From contig NZ_UEFQ01000026.1 in the NCBI RefSeq assembly GCF_900489465.1, forward strand, positions 124,001 through 188,000: 64,000 nt of DNA, in the 5' to 3' direction. This document shows, one piece after another, positions 54,940 through 63,414 of this stretch. The notes below the pieces were generated by a model. The model saw only the letters and a program-made list of their open reading frames with translations. It was not told the DNA's origin and searched no databases. The position numbers were made by a program, and so were the translations under genes. Position 1 is the first letter of the stretch. The number at the start of each line of letters is the position of its first letter. This stretch comes from Aequorivita sp. CIP111184. GTDB lineage: Bacteria; Bacteroidota; Bacteroidia; Flavobacteriales; Flavobacteriaceae.

Positions 54940-55644
54940 TTATGATTCAACTGTTTTAGAAGAATATTTTTCTCTGAATTTTTCCATTAAAACGTATACT
55001 GTTAGCAACATACTTAAAGCATATATACTATCTTCAATAGGTACAGTGCCAATTCGTATTCCTAGGTTTTCTGCATTGTTGTACCAAACTACTTCTTCGT
55101 GAATCCAGCTACCGGTTAGAAAACCATTCACAATAAAAAAAGGGACCAAAAGAATAAAGAATACGGGAAGAAAAGTATTTAGGATCTCGCGCTTATAATT
55201 AAAAATTAAGGCCATCAAAACAATAGCATATCCAAAATTTATCGCTGTATACCAACGATCGTAAAAATAAAGTAGGGTAGCAATTAAAACGGTTTGTAGT
55301 GAAAAGTAAATTATCGCTGTAGTTTTATTTGAGAATGAAAACTGCGGAAGCAAATTTTTAAATGCATAAATTGTAAAAAGACACGCATAGGGAATGCAAA
55401 TAAAGAAAAGCCATTCCTCTAAAGGCAGGTTTGCGAATTTCAGTCCCGAAAGATATTTTTCATTAAATCCCCAAAAACCATTTTGCGTAAAAATAATGTC
55501 CCAGGGAATAAAAAAAGCCATCATTATAAATGTGGCAGGGATAAAATATTTCCAGAGCTTGTAAAACTTCAACTTTGGGTGAAAACTGAAAAGAAAAGGC
55601 ACACTTAGTGAAACTAGGTCTAACAAAAGGTAAAGATGCCACAT
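54940..55644 (-). CDS. crtY: Lycopene cyclase, CrtYcd type
   Basis: A 234-residue membrane protein with about seven helices, equal to the CrtYc and CrtYd subunits fused. Each half has its own acid motif: LPLEEWLFFICIPYACLFTIYAF (about residue 76) and GTVPIEDSIYALSMLLTVYVLMEKF near the end. It closes the beta-ionone rings of lycopene to give beta-carotene. It starts 3 bases after the hydroxylase stop and is the last gene of the carotenoid operon. Confidence 0.9.
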   Translation of the reverse strand: MWHLYLLLDLVSLSVPFLFSFHPKLKFYKLWKYFIPATFIMMAFFIPWDIIFTQNGFWGFNEKYLSGLKFANLPLEEWLFFICIPYACLFTIYAFKNLLPQFSFSNKTTAIIYFSLQTVLIATLLYFYDRWYTAINFGYAIVLMALIFNYKREILNTFLPVFFILLVPFFIVNGFLTGSWIHEEVVWYNNAENLGIRIGTVPIEDSIYALSMLLTVYVLMEKFREKYSSKTVES

Positions 55645-55647
55645 AGC

Positions 55648-56097
55648 CTATTTTTTGAAGTATTTCAAGGGCGGAAATAGCATTCCGAAACATTCACCTT
55701 CTTCTTTTCCTAAATGCTTATGATGAATTTTATGGGCACGTCTTATTCCGCGTGCATACCAATTATTAGCATTTCGAAACATTTTAAAACGTTGGTGTAT
55801 AAAAATGTCGTGTACAAAAAAATAGGCAAGACCATACGCGAAAATTCCAAGGCCTATGGGCAATCCCGCCCAAAAACCGAAATAACTCCAGCCTATAAAA
55901 CAACTGATGCTGACCAATGCGTAAAAAATAAAAAAGTAGTCATTACGCTCCCACCAGCTACCGTGATCTTTGTGGTGATGGTCTTTATGTATTTTCCATA
56001 GAAAGCCATGCATAATGTATTTATGCGTAAACCAAGCCATAAATTCCATAATACAGAAAGTGGCAATGAAAATTAATATCCAAAGAGCAGTTGTCAT
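55648..56097 (-). CDS. crtZ: Beta-carotene hydroxylase, CrtZ type
   Basis: A 149-residue membrane di-iron hydroxylase of the fatty-acid hydroxylase superfamily. The His clusters are HKYIMHGFLWKIHKDHHHKDHG, HDIFIHQRF and RRAHKIHHKH. It adds hydroxyl groups to the rings of beta-carotene, giving zeaxanthin. It lies between crtB (67 bases upstream) and crtY (3 bases downstream). Length fits CrtZ. Confidence 0.92.
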   Translation of the reverse strand: MTTALWILIFIATFCIMEFMAWFTHKYIMHGFLWKIHKDHHHKDHGSWWERNDYFFIFYALVSISCFIGWSYFGFWAGLPIGLGIFAYGLAYFFVHDIFIHQRFKMFRNANNWYARGIRRAHKIHHKHLGKEEGECFGMLFPPLKYFKK

Positions 56098-56164: not shown

Positions 56165-57007
56165 TTATTTTACCAAATTTAATTGATATTTTACGTAGCT
56201 ACGTGTTAAAAGGCCGATTTTTTCAACATTTGGAACCCGTATTCTGGCATTTTTAATTTCTGTTGCAGGCGTTTGCTGGAGCTTTTTCAGTAAACGTTTA
56301 TAATATCTATAAGCAACAAAGACACCGAGCTTAGAATCGTGCGGCAGTTGTAGAATACCCTGATAACCTTGGTTGAAATTTTCTTCTATTTCTTGGATTA
56401 TTTGAGCTTTAGATTCCTCATCCAAAGAATCAAGATTGGTATTTGGAAAATAGGTTCGGCTTAAGTTTTCATAGTCTTCTTTCAGATCACGTAAAAAATT
56501 TACTTTTTGAAATGCCGATCCCAAATTCATAGCAGATTCTTTCAATTGATTATATTTTTCAGTATCACCTTTCACAAAAACGTTTAAACACATCAAACCC
56601 ACTACGTCAGCAGAACCATATATATATTCATTAAACTCTTCTGTTGTTGAATAAACGCTTTTGGTCAAGTCCAAGCGCATACTGGACATAAATGTATCTA
56701 TTAAGGCTCTATCAATATTGTATTTGTAAACCGTGTCCTGAAAAGAATTTAAAATAGGGTTTAAGCTTATTCTATCAAATAATGCTTCTTCTAATGCATT
56801 CTCAAAGCGACTGAAAAGAACTTCTTTGTTGTAATCGTGAAACGAATCCACAATTTCATCTGCAAAACGTACAAAACCATAAATATTGTAAATGTCTTGC
56901 CGAATGGAGGGACCAAGCATTCGGGTTGCTAACGAGAAAGATGTACTGTAAGTTTCAGTAACATTTTTGCTGCATTTTTTGGAAACTATGTCAAAAAGCT
57001 CTTTCAA
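56165..57007 (-). CDS. crtB: Phytoene synthase
   Basis: A 280-residue head-to-head prenyl synthase that joins two geranylgeranyl diphosphates to phytoene. The metal-binding motifs are RFADEIVDSFHDY and FLRDLKEDYENLSRTYFP. Its ATG overlaps the crtI stop by 4 bases, so they are coupled. Length fits. The supply of geranylgeranyl diphosphate must come from a gene outside this window. Confidence 0.94.
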   Translation of the reverse strand: MKELFDIVSKKCSKNVTETYSTSFSLATRMLGPSIRQDIYNIYGFVRFADEIVDSFHDYNKEVLFSRFENALEEALFDRISLNPILNSFQDTVYKYNIDRALIDTFMSSMRLDLTKSVYSTTEEFNEYIYGSADVVGLMCLNVFVKGDTEKYNQLKESAMNLGSAFQKVNFLRDLKEDYENLSRTYFPNTNLDSLDEESKAQIIQEIEENFNQGYQGILQLPHDSKLGVFVAYRYYKRLLKKLQQTPATEIKNARIRVPNVEKIGLLTRSYVKYQLNLVK

Positions 57008-58467
57008 TTTTTGTTTTCTTTTTCGATTAAACCAGCCACTAATTTTCCAGAGATAAGGGCTGGCGGAACTCCCGGTCCGGGAACGGTAAGCTGTCCAGTG
57101 AAAAATAGATTCTTCACTTTGCCGCTTTTCAATTTAGGTCTTAAGAAAGCCGTTTGCATCAATGTATTTGCAAGTCCGTAGGCATTACCTTTATAGCTGT
57201 TGTAATCAGAAATAAAATCATTGATGCAAAAGGATTCTTTAAATATAACGTATTTTTTAACCTCTTGGTTGGTAATTTTTTCAAAACGCTCTATTATTTT
57301 ATCAAAATATTCCTCACGCAATTCCGGAATATCATCCAATCCAGGTGCTAAAGGAATTAAAAAAATACCTGCTTCCATTCCCTCTGGAGAAACACTTTTA
57401 TCTGTTTTTGAAGGAAAGCTTGCGTAAAAAAGTGGATCATTAGGCCATTGTGGCGAATCGTATATTTCTTGTGAATGCTTTTCAAAATCCACATCAAAAA
57501 ACAAAGTGTGGTGATCTACATTTTCAATTTTTTTGTTAAAGCCAACATAAAATAGGAGGGCAGAAGGGGCAAAGGTTTTCTTTTCCCAATAACTTTCCGA
57601 ATACTGACGGAATTTTTTATCCATTAGTGTTTCTGTATGATGATAATCTGCACCGCTTAGAATAACATCGGCATTAATTTTTTCACCATTTATATTTAAA
57701 GAAGTAGCTTTTCCGTTTTCTACATTTATTTTTTCAACATTTTGATTGGTCATTATTTTCACGCCAAACTCTTCGGCGAGAGTTTTCATTCCTTCAATTA
57801 CCGAATACATTCCTTTCTTTGGATGAAAAGTTCCAAGTCCAAAATCTGCATAATTCATAAAACTATAGAATGCAGGTGTATTAGAAGGTTTTGCTCCTAA
57901 AAATAAAACAGGAAATTCTAATATTGAAATCAATTTGGGATTGGTAAACTCACGGCGAACGTCTTTACTTATGGTACTAAAAAACTGACCAATCTTTTTC
58001 ATTGTGGTTACTGTAACCAACTCTAAAGGTGAAACGCCAGGTCTATATACCAAATCTTTAATAGCAATGTTATAATTGTCCATGGCTTGATCCATAAAAT
58101 CGCGAAGCTTTATAGAACTTCCTGCTTCTTCATTTTCAAAAGCAGTGTATATTTTTTCAAGAGAATCTTCAATAGTTATATAATCATCCGTTCCATAGTA
58201 GACACGGTAAGCGGGGTTTAGTTTTTGAAGTTCATAAAAGTCGGATGGAGTTTTATCGAAATCTTTAAAAAAACGTTCAAAAACATCAGGCATCCAGTAC
58301 CACGTAGGACCCATGTCAAAAGTAAAACCATCTTTTTTGAACTGTCTGGCACGTCCGCCAATGGTTTGGTTTTTTTCGTAAATAGTTACATTATTTCCCG
58401 CCTGAGCCAAATAGCAAGAAGCAGCAAGTGATGAGAAGCCAGAACCTATAATAGCAATTTTCTTCAT
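57004..58467 (-). CDS. crtI: Phytoene desaturase
   Basis: The start MKKIAIIGSGFSSLAASCYLAQ (58467) puts the FAD-binding motif at the usual place. An ATG four codons upstream lies inside the inverted repeat. The about 487-residue flavoprotein shows KNQTIGGRARQFKKDGFTFDMGPTWYWMPDVFERF and the C-terminal LFFTGQLTVPGPGVPPALISG, typical of CrtI. It converts phytoene to lycopene in four desaturation steps. It is the first structural gene of the cluster, with its -7 box embedded in a putative CarH operator. Confidence 0.94.
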   Translation of the reverse strand: MKKIAIIGSGFSSLAASCYLAQAGNNVTIYEKNQTIGGRARQFKKDGFTFDMGPTWYWMPDVFERFFKDFDKTPSDFYELQKLNPAYRVYYGTDDYITIEDSLEKIYTAFENEEAGSSIKLRDFMDQAMDNYNIAIKDLVYRPGVSPLELVTVTTMKKIGQFFSTISKDVRREFTNPKLISILEFPVLFLGAKPSNTPAFYSFMNYADFGLGTFHPKKGMYSVIEGMKTLAEEFGVKIMTNQNVEKINVENGKATSLNINGEKINADVILSGADYHHTETLMDKKFRQYSESYWEKKTFAPSALLFYVGFNKKIENVDHHTLFFDVDFEKHSQEIYDSPQWPNDPLFYASFPSKTDKSVSPEGMEAGIFLIPLAPGLDDIPELREEYFDKIIERFEKITNQEVKKYVIFKESFCINDFISDYNSYKGNAYGLANTLMQTAFLRPKLKSGKVKNLFFTGQLTVPGPGVPPALISGKLVAGLIEKENKN

Positions 58468-58468
58468 A

Positions 58469-58500
58469 TTGTTTAACAAATTTACACTTTATTTAAACAA
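58469..58500. promoter_or_regulatory. Putative CarH operator overlapping the crtI promoter
   Basis: Eight-base arms TTGTTTAA (58469-58476) and TTAAACAA (58493-58500) with a 16-base centre. On the minus strand the centre holds TAAATTTG (58477-58484), a full TAnnTTTG -7 box, 9 bases before the crtI ATG. The same TGTTTA-N18-TAAACA layout precedes the regulator gene. Confidence 0.65.
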
Positions 58501-58609
58501 AAAAGAGATTTGCAGAATCTATTTTTTATATTCTTATATAGTTTCTATAAATAACATATAATTGAGAACGATGTTTAGCCGTAAAAGATAGTTTTCAAGA
58601 TATTAAATA

Positions 58610-59512
58610 TCAATTATTTAACCCTTTATCAACTTGGTCTGTAAACTGTTTTATGTCTTTGAAAAATTTTACATTTTTCGTATTCTTTGTATTTTTCCCA
58701 ACCTTACGCCCCAAAACCCAAAGTTCACATGGACCTTTAGATTGTACTTCACTCTGAAAATCCTCGAGATATTTTTCAAAATTGTCTTTTTCAGGACGTA
58801 CCGTAAAATAGGTTACAAAAATTACTTTCGTTTTTGTTTTGAGCACATATATTAAACTTTCCAAGGGGATATTAGCTCCTAAAAATAGTGTATTAAATCC
58901 TGCTGAAAGAAGTTCGTAATTGGCATACAGTAAGCCAATTTCGTGAATTTCTTGATAAGGAAGATAAAGGGAAAAAAACTGTTTGTTTTTCTCTGAAATA
59001 CTTGCTTTTTGTTTTGCCGAATGCTCTATTATAGAATGTTTTATTTTTTCTGAAATAAAATGTTCGTGAGAAGGATCAATAGTTCCAGAATGCCATAGGA
59101 TGCCCATTTCATTAAGCAGGGGCACGAAAATGTCCGAAAAAATTTCTCTGAACGATTTCTTTTCTAAAAGTTTTTCTAGCGTATCGTCAAAAAGTTCCCC
59201 ATCAAACTCAAACATTGCAGATTTAAAAATATTGAGCACATATTCAGAGTCAATCCCATTAATGCTCTTTTTTATCAACGTCTGAATTTCTGAAGCGTCT
59301 AGGCTTGCAATTTTTGAAATTTTATGACCAGCATTGTATAGGTAAGCAACATTCAATAACTTTTTAAGGTTATTTAGATCATACTTTCTGATGTTTGTAT
59401 CGGTACGATCAGGTTCGAGAAGATTGTAGCGTTTCTCCCAAATCCTAATAGTATGTGCTTTAACGTTTGAAAGATTTTCAAGATCTTTAATGCCAAATTC
59501 ATTTTTGACCAC
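58610..59512 (-). CDS. carH: MerR-type regulator with B12-binding domain (CarH/LitR photoreceptor-like)
   Basis: A 300-residue protein. The N-terminal MerR helix-turn-helix (GIKDLENLSNVKAHTIRIWEKRYNLLEP, about residues 7-75) is followed by a helical cobalamin-capping domain (about 90-165) and a Rossmann B12-binding domain (about 178-290). The cap carries W140-x9-E150-H151, the motif over the adenosyl group in CarH. The fold keeps E188-I-H190-E-I-G193, in which the His is the lower cobalt ligand. Characterised members bind adenosylcobalamin in the dark, tetramerise on DNA and repress; light breaks the Co-C bond and frees the carotenoid genes. It lies directly upstream of crtI in the same direction. 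Loss of neither motif is seen, so photoreception is likely. Confidence 0.9.
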   Translation of the reverse strand: MVKNEFGIKDLENLSNVKAHTIRIWEKRYNLLEPDRTDTNIRKYDLNNLKKLLNVAYLYNAGHKISKIASLDASEIQTLIKKSINGIDSEYVLNIFKSAMFEFDGELFDDTLEKLLEKKSFREIFSDIFVPLLNEMGILWHSGTIDPSHEHFISEKIKHSIIEHSAKQKASISEKNKQFFSLYLPYQEIHEIGLLYANYELLSAGFNTLFLGANIPLESLIYVLKTKTKVIFVTYFTVRPEKDNFEKYLEDFQSEVQSKGPCELWVLGRKVGKNTKNTKNVKFFKDIKQFTDQVDKGLNN

Positions 59513-59563
59513 AGAATAATTATTTTAAAATATTGGGTTAATGTACTAAAAAGAAGTGAATAC

Positions 59564-59593
59564 TGTTTATAAAAATAATAAATTCTTTAAACA
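59564..59593. promoter_or_regulatory. Second putative CarH operator, upstream of carH
   Basis: TGTTTA (59564-59569) and TAAACA (59588-59593) are separated by 18 bases, exactly as at crtI. On the minus strand a TATTTTTA element, close to the -7 consensus, lies within it. Autoregulation is inferred. Confidence 0.55.
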
Positions 59594-59608
59594 ATAAAAT
59601 AAAATTTG

Positions 59609-59691
59609 TACCCGGAATGGGACTTGAACCCACACGCCCTAAGGACACATGGCCCTCAACCATGCCTGTCTACCAATTCCAGCACCCGGGT
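59609..59691 (-). tRNA. tRNA-Leu (anticodon GAG)
   Basis: An 83-nucleotide class II tRNA. The 7-pair acceptor stem is ACCCGGG with TCCGGGT, and the anticodon arm is CATGG-TTGAGGG-CCATG with GAG at plus positions 59655-59657 (as CTC). A long variable arm and a T arm GTGGG-TTCAAGT-CCCAT follow. The CCA end is not encoded. Confidence 0.95.
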
Positions 59692-62832: not shown

Positions 62833-63270
62833 TTAAATACACAATAACATCAATACAGCAACAGGAACCGCATCTGTTATAGTATAAATAACTGTGTTGT
62901 AATCCCCTTTTCCCATCCTTAAATAGGTGCCATCCCAAGTGTACAGTACTGTGTTGTATTCCCCTTTTCCTTCTCGAATATATTTTCCATCCCAAGTAAG
63001 GAGTACAGTATTATATGCACCCTTTCCCTGCCGAAGGTAATGTCCATCCCACGTATATAAAACTGTATTGTAGGCTCCCTTTCCCAAACGGATATATTGC
63101 TCATCTATCGTATAGAGCACCGTATTGTAACTTCCTTTTCCCTGTCTTAAATATGTCCCATCCCAAGTATATAGTACCTCATTGTAAATGCCTTTCCCTT
63201 GGCGAATATAATTTTGACTGAATAACGCTCTAGTAATAAAAAAGAATAGCAATAAGAATTTTACTCTCAT
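62833..63270 (-). CDS. Secreted protein built of six 19-residue repeats
   Basis: The start MRVKFLLLFFFITRALFSQ (63270) gives a signal peptide; an ATG five codons upstream is also possible. The mature protein is six back-to-back copies of Y-I/L-R-x-G-K-G-x-Y-N-T-V-L-Y-T-W-D-G-x, encoded at 62869-63210, and ends with a hydrophobic AVPVAVLMLLCI tail. Odd-numbered copies begin YIR and even-numbered YLR. It resembles short beta-repeat proteins of Bacteroidota sometimes annotated as 5-fold beta-flower, but with six units. It lies 85 bases upstream of the TPR kinase, on the same strand. Function unknown. Confidence 0.8.
   Translation of the reverse strand: MRVKFLLLFFFITRALFSQNYIRQGKGIYNEVLYTWDGTYLRQGKGSYNTVLYTIDEQYIRLGKGAYNTVLYTWDGHYLRQGKGAYNTVLLTWDGKYIREGKGEYNTVLYTWDGTYLRMGKGDYNTVIYTITDAVPVAVLMLLCI
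62869..63210 (-). repeat. Six tandem 57-base coding repeats
   Basis: Six in-frame units of exactly 57 bases with no spacers, encoding the 19-residue repeat. Codon changes between units show that they are not recent copies. Confidence 0.85.
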
Positions 63271-63414
63271 AAAATTTATTTTCAAATAAGATACAACTTT
63301 ATTAATACTTCATTGGTCCAACCTAAGGCAGCGTTTAGTAGTTGGCAATAAATTATAAACCATTAATTTTTTCTGTTTACTCTAGCATTGCTTCCCATTC
63401 TTCCATAAATTCAT

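Follow-up and report, generated by a model that had tools for sequence, protein, structure and literature searches.

A conserved inverted repeat as the probable operator of CarH in Bacteroidia, and its occurrence before carotenoid and proteorhodopsin genes

Introduction

CarH serves both as a model photoreceptor and in optogenetics, and it has hitherto been linked to tandem direct-repeat operators. The family itself and the control of carotenoids by light through CarH are already known. In Thermus and Bacillus megaterium, the CarH operators are made up of three or four tandem 11-bp direct repeats, nnnnTnnACAn; the half-site is TnnACA and the known operators overlap promoter elements (PMC9304148, in the excerpts available). 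In the flavobacterium Aequorivita sp. CIP111184, a carH-like gene lies beside a carotenoid operon, and one and the same inverted repeat, TGTTTA-N18-TAAACA, precedes both. This locus raises the question of which protein reads the repeat, in response to which signal, and how many genes are concerned.

Two Copies of One Repeat

The window, that is, the whole stretch of 64,000 nucleotides that was analyzed, carries the following features:

54940..55644, minus strand: crtY, lycopene cyclase (Pfam Lycopene_cyc)
55648..56097, minus strand: crtZ, carotene hydroxylase (Pfam FA_hydroxylase; name from operon position)
56165..57007, minus strand: crtB, phytoene synthase (Pfam SQS_PSY)
57004..58467, minus strand: crtI, phytoene desaturase, ATG at 58467 (Pfam Amino_oxidase and NAD_binding_8; name from operon position)
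58470..58499, no strand: putative crtI operator, exact TGTTTA-N18-TAAACA (sequence, shuffles, conservation before crtI)
58477..58484, minus strand: full -7 box TAAATTTG within the crtI operator (sequence)
58610..59512, minus strand: carH, 300 aa, GTG start (Pfam, AlphaFold model, conserved ligand residues)
59564..59593, no strand: putative carH operator, exact TGTTTA-N18-TAAACA (sequence, shuffles, conservation before carH)
59570..59577, minus strand: near-consensus -7 box TATTTTTA within the carH operator (sequence)

A preliminary description of this DNA had placed the repeat, with identical spacing, before crtI and carH, and both copies are indeed exact. Its gene calls, crtI, crtB, crtZ, crtY and a CarH-like regulator, agree with Pfam (MerR and B12-binding_2 for the regulator), and so do its promoter boxes with the sequence: the box at crtI is full, and the one at carH departs from TAnnTTTG at one base, its register differing by 1 bp from that at crtI. 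Two bases separate the operator from the ATG of crtI (58467) and 51 bases separate it from the GTG of carH (59512).

Two exact copies in the window compare with 0.013 expected; among 300 shuffles, four contained one copy and none contained two. When the two 240-bp promoter regions were shuffled locally, an exact match arose in 2 and 5 of 20000 cases. If one mismatch is allowed, the window still counts 2 copies vs. 0.89 expected, a number reached in 26/100 shuffles and unremarkable when taken by itself. At spacings from 4 to 39 other than N18, an exact half-site pair is absent from both promoter regions. Shuffles, reversed patterns (see below) and other spacings thus rule out chance or AT-richness as the origin of the repeat.

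Two neighboring features may be mentioned. About 14 bp lie between the end of a tRNA-Leu gene (gag, minus strand, 59608-59691) and the carH operator downstream of it, and carH mRNA could also arise by read-through from this gene. Further on, positions 62833-63285 encode a small, secreted-looking protein made up of repeated GKGxYNTVLYTWDG-like units.

Conservation of the Site Before carH and crtI

Promoters were counted at 126 carH loci, 114 from the 120 genomes with a CarH match (109 of the 111 with a close CarH, 5 of the 9 with a distant one only) and 12 from a sample of the phylum. Two close genomes treated separately (G034 and G044), four distant ones (G014, G025, G066 and G098) and second carH copies stand outside these counts. 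Upstream sequence was sufficient for carH at 124 loci, and crtI was usable at 113.

With at most one mismatch, the N18 site is found in 93/124 carH promoters and in 65/113 carH-linked crtI promoters, and at spacings from 6 to 33 other than N18 the best score is 13 loci at each gene. The conservation in relatives that had been proposed as a check is thus met at both genes in the majority of loci. The placement of the site matches operon structure. Where carH and crtI are less than 25 bp apart, the crtI site is found in 0/29 loci and the carH site in 25/29; the crtI site is present in 60/78 loci when the gap is 25-60 bp and in 5/6 when it is at least 60 bp. However, 18/126 loci have an N18 site at neither gene. 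Ten of these have no crtI in the stretch, four have crtI at most 9 bp from carH, and four have a gap of 43-55 bp.

The Regulator and Its Putative Light Signal

The window genome encodes a single CarH. The protein comprises a MerR-type winged helix-turn-helix (wHTH), a B12-binding_2 helical bundle and a Rossmann-like domain. Its Pfam matches are PF13411 and PF02607, and PF02310, the model of the Rossmann B12-binding domain, has no match at an E-value of 0.001. A class I CarH/LitR protein is expected to combine a wHTH, a four-helix bundle and a Rossmann domain, and the window protein does so even though PF02310 itself is unmatched. The AlphaFold model has a mean pLDDT of 92.9; its best PDB matches are Thermus CarH structures in the dark, lit and DNA-bound states (5c8d/5c8e/5c8f), at 17-19% identity. 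The TM-score is about 0.5-0.6 against full-length Thermus CarH and about 0.8, by target length, against its cobalamin-binding domain.

The ligand signature of class I (W-x9-EH and ExHxxG) is also met. The two cobalamin motifs read earlier from the sequence, W140-x9-E150-H151 and E188-I-H190-E-I-G193 (residues counted from GTG 59512), are present and align with those of Thermus CarH. In 120 close relatives, W140, E150, E188 and H190 are kept without exception, G193 in 114 and H151 in 106, the other 14 having R, S or Q at the latter position. All 120 also have K18, H20 and N40, which belong to the presumed recognition helix and wing. As to cofactor supply, the window genome encodes a cobalamin adenosyltransferase of the PduO type (PF01923); no adenosyltransferase of the CobA type (PF02572) was found in it.

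These data bear on the alternative that holds best, namely that CarH binds the repeat while light is sensed without AdoCbl, through a LOV partner as for class II LitR, or through redox or singlet oxygen. The lack of a PF02310 match and the replacement of H151 in 14/120 relatives would fit such sensing, and LitR classes lacking B12 sensing do exist (PMC9758184, as far as the available text goes). However, W140, E150 and H190 are invariant in the 120 relatives, an adenosyltransferase is present, and the modeled C-terminal part has the shape of the cobalamin-binding domain of CarH. We regard sensing without AdoCbl as unlikely, though it deserves to be kept in mind.

Co-occurrence of Sites and CarH in Flavobacteriaceae

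In 149 Flavobacteriaceae genomes, 111 have a close CarH, 9 only a distant relative and 29 none. Exact sites average 5.35 per genome in the first group (1.25 for the reversed-pattern control), 1.67 in the second (control 1.00) and 1.21 in the third (control 1.14). For comparison, when the half-sites are set at the six spacings N12-17, the genomes with close CarH average 0.97 per genome and spacing (n=111). These per-genome counts ignore relatedness.

Eighteen genomes have crtI but no close CarH, and none of them shows an N18 or N19 site, even with one mismatch allowed, within 250 bp before crtI; two-mismatch matches occur at two of these loci, L205 and L209. Three of the 18 crtI loci (L216, L217 and L218) encode proteins whose identity to the window CrtI is just 45-49%, and these are perhaps not orthologues. 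A CrtI tree was built from 129 rows; the operator lies at most 250 bp before crtI in 64/111 of those with a close CarH vs. 0/18 without. The presence of carH changes five times on this tree and two independent pairs are supported, in which the operator followed carH in 1.4 of 2 on average and never went in the opposite direction. With so few independent changes, correction for relatedness leaves the co-occurrence short of significance. Two genomes with only a distant CarH also count against a strict link to close CarH: G007, one of the 18 above, where crtI directly follows the distant carH, has a site before that carH (L195), and G025 has 5 exact sites vs. 0 in the control.

Another regulator accompanying CarH might be the one that binds the repeat, for instance a TetR-like protein (TetR_C_23), with carH merely one of its targets. 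Indeed, an operon of TetR and ABC1 kinase genes itself carries the site in both G034 and G044. Again with relatedness ignored, genomes with TetR_C_23 and no close CarH have a mean of 2.78 sites (n=9) vs. 0.86 in those with neither (n=29; p=0.012); where a close CarH is present, the mean is 5.94 with TetR_C_23 (n=86) vs. 3.32 without (n=25). Nonetheless, these 25 CarH genomes devoid of TetR_C_23 keep their 3.32 sites (p=1.5e-6 vs. neither). Only three of the nine genomes with TetR_C_23 and no close CarH reach at least 4 sites; two of them are incomplete (G079, 81%; G147, 73%), so that carH may be missing, and the third, G025, is complete and has the distant CarH. The site is moreover found at carH itself in the 93/124 loci given above, its half-site fits CarH, and it lies beside carH in other families. 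On site counts TetR_C_23 is a weaker candidate than CarH, and we find it quite improbable that such a companion regulator is the binder.

Overlap With Promoters and Start Codons

The consensus of the sites tends to TGTTTAAC...TTAAACA. At crtI, TAnnTTTG occupies palindrome positions 16-23 in 58/65 sites and the start codon comes 0-3 bases after the operator in 56/65. Since the -7 box lies in the operator and the start codon follows so closely, the crtI mRNA would be nearly leaderless. At carH, the -7 box is at positions -5 to 2 in 72/93 sites, and in 63/93 the start codon of carH extends into the right half-site (TGAACA, ..ATGAACA). This arrangement amounts to an autoregulatory overlap in which one palindrome base is lost. 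For these overlap counts, start codons were chosen by script.

A known CarH operator has TnnACA half-sites lying over promoter elements. This holds here, with TAAACA and its reverse complement lying over the -7 box or the start codon. The box thus occurs in two registers while both half-sites are retained, which speaks for a bound protein that blocks RNA polymerase rather than for a promoter element as such. That the repeat merely belongs to a class of strong AT-rich promoters (TAnnTTTG then TTAAACA), without being a binding site, could be argued from the box fixed inside it in 58/65 crtI sites, but the box of the carH sites lies elsewhere (from position -5, in 72/93) with half-sites and N18 kept, other spacings are rare, and the 18 crtI promoters without close CarH lack the repeat; such an origin is very hard to sustain. 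Nor is there much room for CarH as a MerR-type activator untwisting a long spacer: it has the MerR-type wHTH, and most MerR proteins are activators (PMC9478572, in the portion available), but a palindrome confined to a long spacer would then be expected, and the site instead reaches beyond the spacer to cover the -7 box, the start region or the start codon in two registers, while the CarH/LitR proteins described in the available parts of PMC9304148 and PMC9758184 are repressors. MliR of Bizionia (PMC9478572) was considered as a homologue and dropped, the terms cobalamin and phytoene being absent from that paper.

Other Families of the Class

Outside Flavobacteriaceae, the best 12 of the 23 genomes with a CarH match were examined, their CarH being 33-42% identical; more distant CarH relatives, in six genomes of the same phylum, are excluded from this survey. 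N18 sites lie near carH in 9/12 loci and N19 sites in one, and no sites were found at the two remaining carH loci, L080 and L091. At least two sites occur in a row in 9 of the 10 site-bearing loci. The presence of sites beside carH in other families indicates that this type of operator is not limited to Flavobacteriaceae.

In all ten site-bearing loci, the adjoining gene is sigma-factor-like, as Pfam confirms in five of five tested, and crtI follows that gene in nine. Between carH and crtI in these loci (L081-L090), one to three operators precede the sigma-factor gene. Carotenogenesis in Myxococcus is under ECF control, and the arrangement recalls that case.

Comparison With Known Operators

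The window CarH shares its domain order, its fold and its W/EH and ExHxxG ligand motifs with CarH of Thermus thermophilus. With the Thermus and Bacillus megaterium systems, it also shares the TnnACA half-site, the overlap of operator and promoter and, by inference, the control of carotenoids (PMC9304148, in the excerpts available). In contrast, the window TAAACA, which fits TnnACA, is arranged as an inverted repeat with N18 and half-site centers 24 bp apart, vs. tandem 11-bp repeats in those two organisms, and K18, H20 and N40 are aligned with S, E and G in Thermus CarH. At neither window site do two TnnACA stand 11 bp apart, and a by-eye hint of tandem 11-bp repeats at crtI failed the scan. 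Even one such pair was found at only 3/29 further carH loci. The preliminary suspicion that the operator does not resemble the Thermus direct repeats is borne out, and this absence or rarity of 11-bp steps makes a distinct type of operator well supported.

Two other systems may be compared. Class II LitR proteins of Pseudomonas (PplR1 and PmlR2) are also repressors of the CarH/LitR family, and the P. putida light regulon, with photolyase, cryptochrome-like and FolE genes, resembles the set of genes preceded by the present site. However, they differ by their site, TGTACA-N12-TGTACA, by having one of the two B12 domains only and, in P. mendocina, by a LOV partner that senses light (PMC9758184, in the passages available). 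CarH of Myxococcus xanthus and Cystobacter is likewise found with carotenoid genes. For CarA of these bacteria, inverted repeats were once proposed, a likeness to the present site, but later work suggests direct repeats (PMC9304148, same restriction). No operator of a Bacteroidota CarH was found in the open-licence literature searched, subscription papers being outside its scope.

A Wider Set of Light-Related Genes

The preliminary description spoke of one operator pair. The pair exists, but the number was understated: the 3.5-Mb window genome holds 11 exact palindrome copies vs. 0 for the reversed control. According to position, mutual BLAST and Pfam, 9 of the 11 precede genes, mostly of light defence. 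Gene context was examined only in the window genome, G034 and G044, and for one site in G107. In the window genome, the sites stand before carH, the crtI operon and a CrtI-like flavin oxidoreductase; two fasciclin proteins; a DUF2452-DUF2805-photolyase operon and a second DUF2452-DUF2805 operon; 6-pyruvoyl-tetrahydropterin synthase/GTP cyclohydrolase I and a flavin amine oxidase, encoded as a divergent pair; and a small protein without Pfam match. The distance to the gene is mostly below 85 bp and reaches 220-232 bp at the DUF2452 operons. However, two of the 11 copies (L005 and L006) lie outside clear promoters, L006 being 235 bp upstream of a gene of a different kind.

All 10 exact sites of G034 lie some 60 bp or less from the start of a gene, at crtI, three fasciclins, DUF2805-FolE, TetR-ABC1 kinase, Porph_ging, a GHMP kinase, a fatty acid desaturase and a bacteriorhodopsin-type gene. 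Placement is similar for 8/10 sites of G044, L053 and L054 being less clear; the genes are crtI, fasciclin twice, Porph_ging, a DUF2805 operon, TetR-ABC1 and DUF2452 at 234 bp, and one site overlaps a 1021-aa reading frame. A light regulon would be expected to have the operator at both the linked carotenoid operon and light-defence genes, and this is the case. As judged from the sequences, the further sites appear to mark a regulon of photolyase, GTP cyclohydrolase, fasciclins, ABC1 kinase and, in relatives, proteorhodopsin, and one light switch probably governs a broader sunlight programme.

Fasciclins recur in this set (L008 and L012 by Pfam; L043, L047, L050 and L055 by BLAST only). Since algae are known to have carotenoid-binding FAS1 proteins, the fasciclins of the regulon may be carotenoid carriers.

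Sites Before Proteorhodopsin Genes

No rhodopsin match was found in the window genome. In the sample, 29 genomes bear a rhodopsin gene, 23 with a close CarH and 6 with none; two of the 29 loci (L118 and L120) are truncated. Where CarH and rhodopsin occur together, 16 of the 21 assessable loci have a site near the rhodopsin start (at most one mismatch; N18, with one N19), three have two-mismatch matches and two have nothing. Among the six loci without CarH, L094 has an exact site and L111 one with one mismatch; their assemblies are 73% and 81% complete, and this incompleteness may mean that carH was missed. Matches with one mismatch are present at L119 (N18 at -122, N19 at -41), a two-mismatch match at L093 and nothing at the last two. 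As a control on spacing, N18 is found at 18 of 28 sample rhodopsin loci and every other spacing at two at most.

A second set was formed by named rhodopsin loci, the best 80 of 594, two of which have no upstream sequence. An N18 or N19 site is present in 66/78, N18 in 65, the best spacing besides 18 scoring 16 loci; a -7-like box lies inside the site at 28/66. The presence of carH was left unchecked here, and overlap with the sample genomes is possible. Examples of the operator close before proteorhodopsin are given by loci L092-L117 and L219-L298 and by L051:2247-3011.

In the available text of PMC3380642, light-enhanced expression of proteorhodopsin is cited for Dokdonia MED134 and constitutive expression for PRO95. 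The regulators were described in 2012 as unknown outside the authors' own Vibrio campbellii (PMC3380642, in the same text), and regulation in flavobacteria was said in 2013 to need further work (PMC3587595, in the part available). Control of proteorhodopsin by CarH was not found in the open-licence literature searched, which excludes subscription papers.

A Model for the Switch

We are fairly confident that the repeat is the operator of the adjacent CarH and that AdoCbl-CarH represses in the dark through an inverted repeat of a Bacteroidota type, although neither binding nor light data are available. This reading takes its support from what the sequences show, a conserved site with its spacing, position and regulon, the fold and ligands of CarH, and an adenosyltransferase gene. 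In the dark, AdoCbl-loaded CarH would sit on two inverted TAAACA half-sites, a symmetric oligomer holding both halves, and would deny RNA polymerase access to crtI and carH by overlapping the -7 box and start region of each. Light would break the Co-C bond of AdoCbl and release CarH. The crtI-crtB-crtZ-crtY operon and carH would then be turned on, together with the wider regulon of photolyase, pterin-cofactor genes and fasciclins and, in relatives, ABC1 kinase and proteorhodopsin. CarH as the binder, repression, AdoCbl and light as the signal and the fit of an oligomer to an inverted site are inferred; the oligomer and the light step are taken from CarH of other phyla.

For a simple MerR dimer the N18 spacing appears wide, and it would suit a tetramer with two of its four heads used. 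On the other hand, Chryseobacterium lacus makes carotenoid in the light, and no genes of a car or lit operon were found in it (PMC7064467, as far as the available text goes), which suggests that light induction in flavobacteria is sometimes independent of CarH.

Significance

Within the open-licence literature searched, the inverted-repeat operator, its class-wide spread and the link with proteorhodopsin are new. A class-wide symmetric operator would mean a second mode of DNA recognition for one sensor. The operator also predicts members of the sunlight response, including DUF2452 and DUF2805, whose function is unknown, and fasciclins, whose role is unclear. With somewhat less assurance than for the operator itself, we favor a general view in which CarH of Bacteroidia reads an inverted-repeat operator that differs from those described in the literature searched, and the flavobacterial CarH switch runs proteorhodopsin along with carotenoid, photolyase and pterin-cofactor genes. 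As the operator stands before proteorhodopsin in 16/21 loci, the question of its regulation becomes directly testable; if this view is true, CarH would fill a gap as the factor that directly controls light-induced proteorhodopsin in marine flavobacteria.
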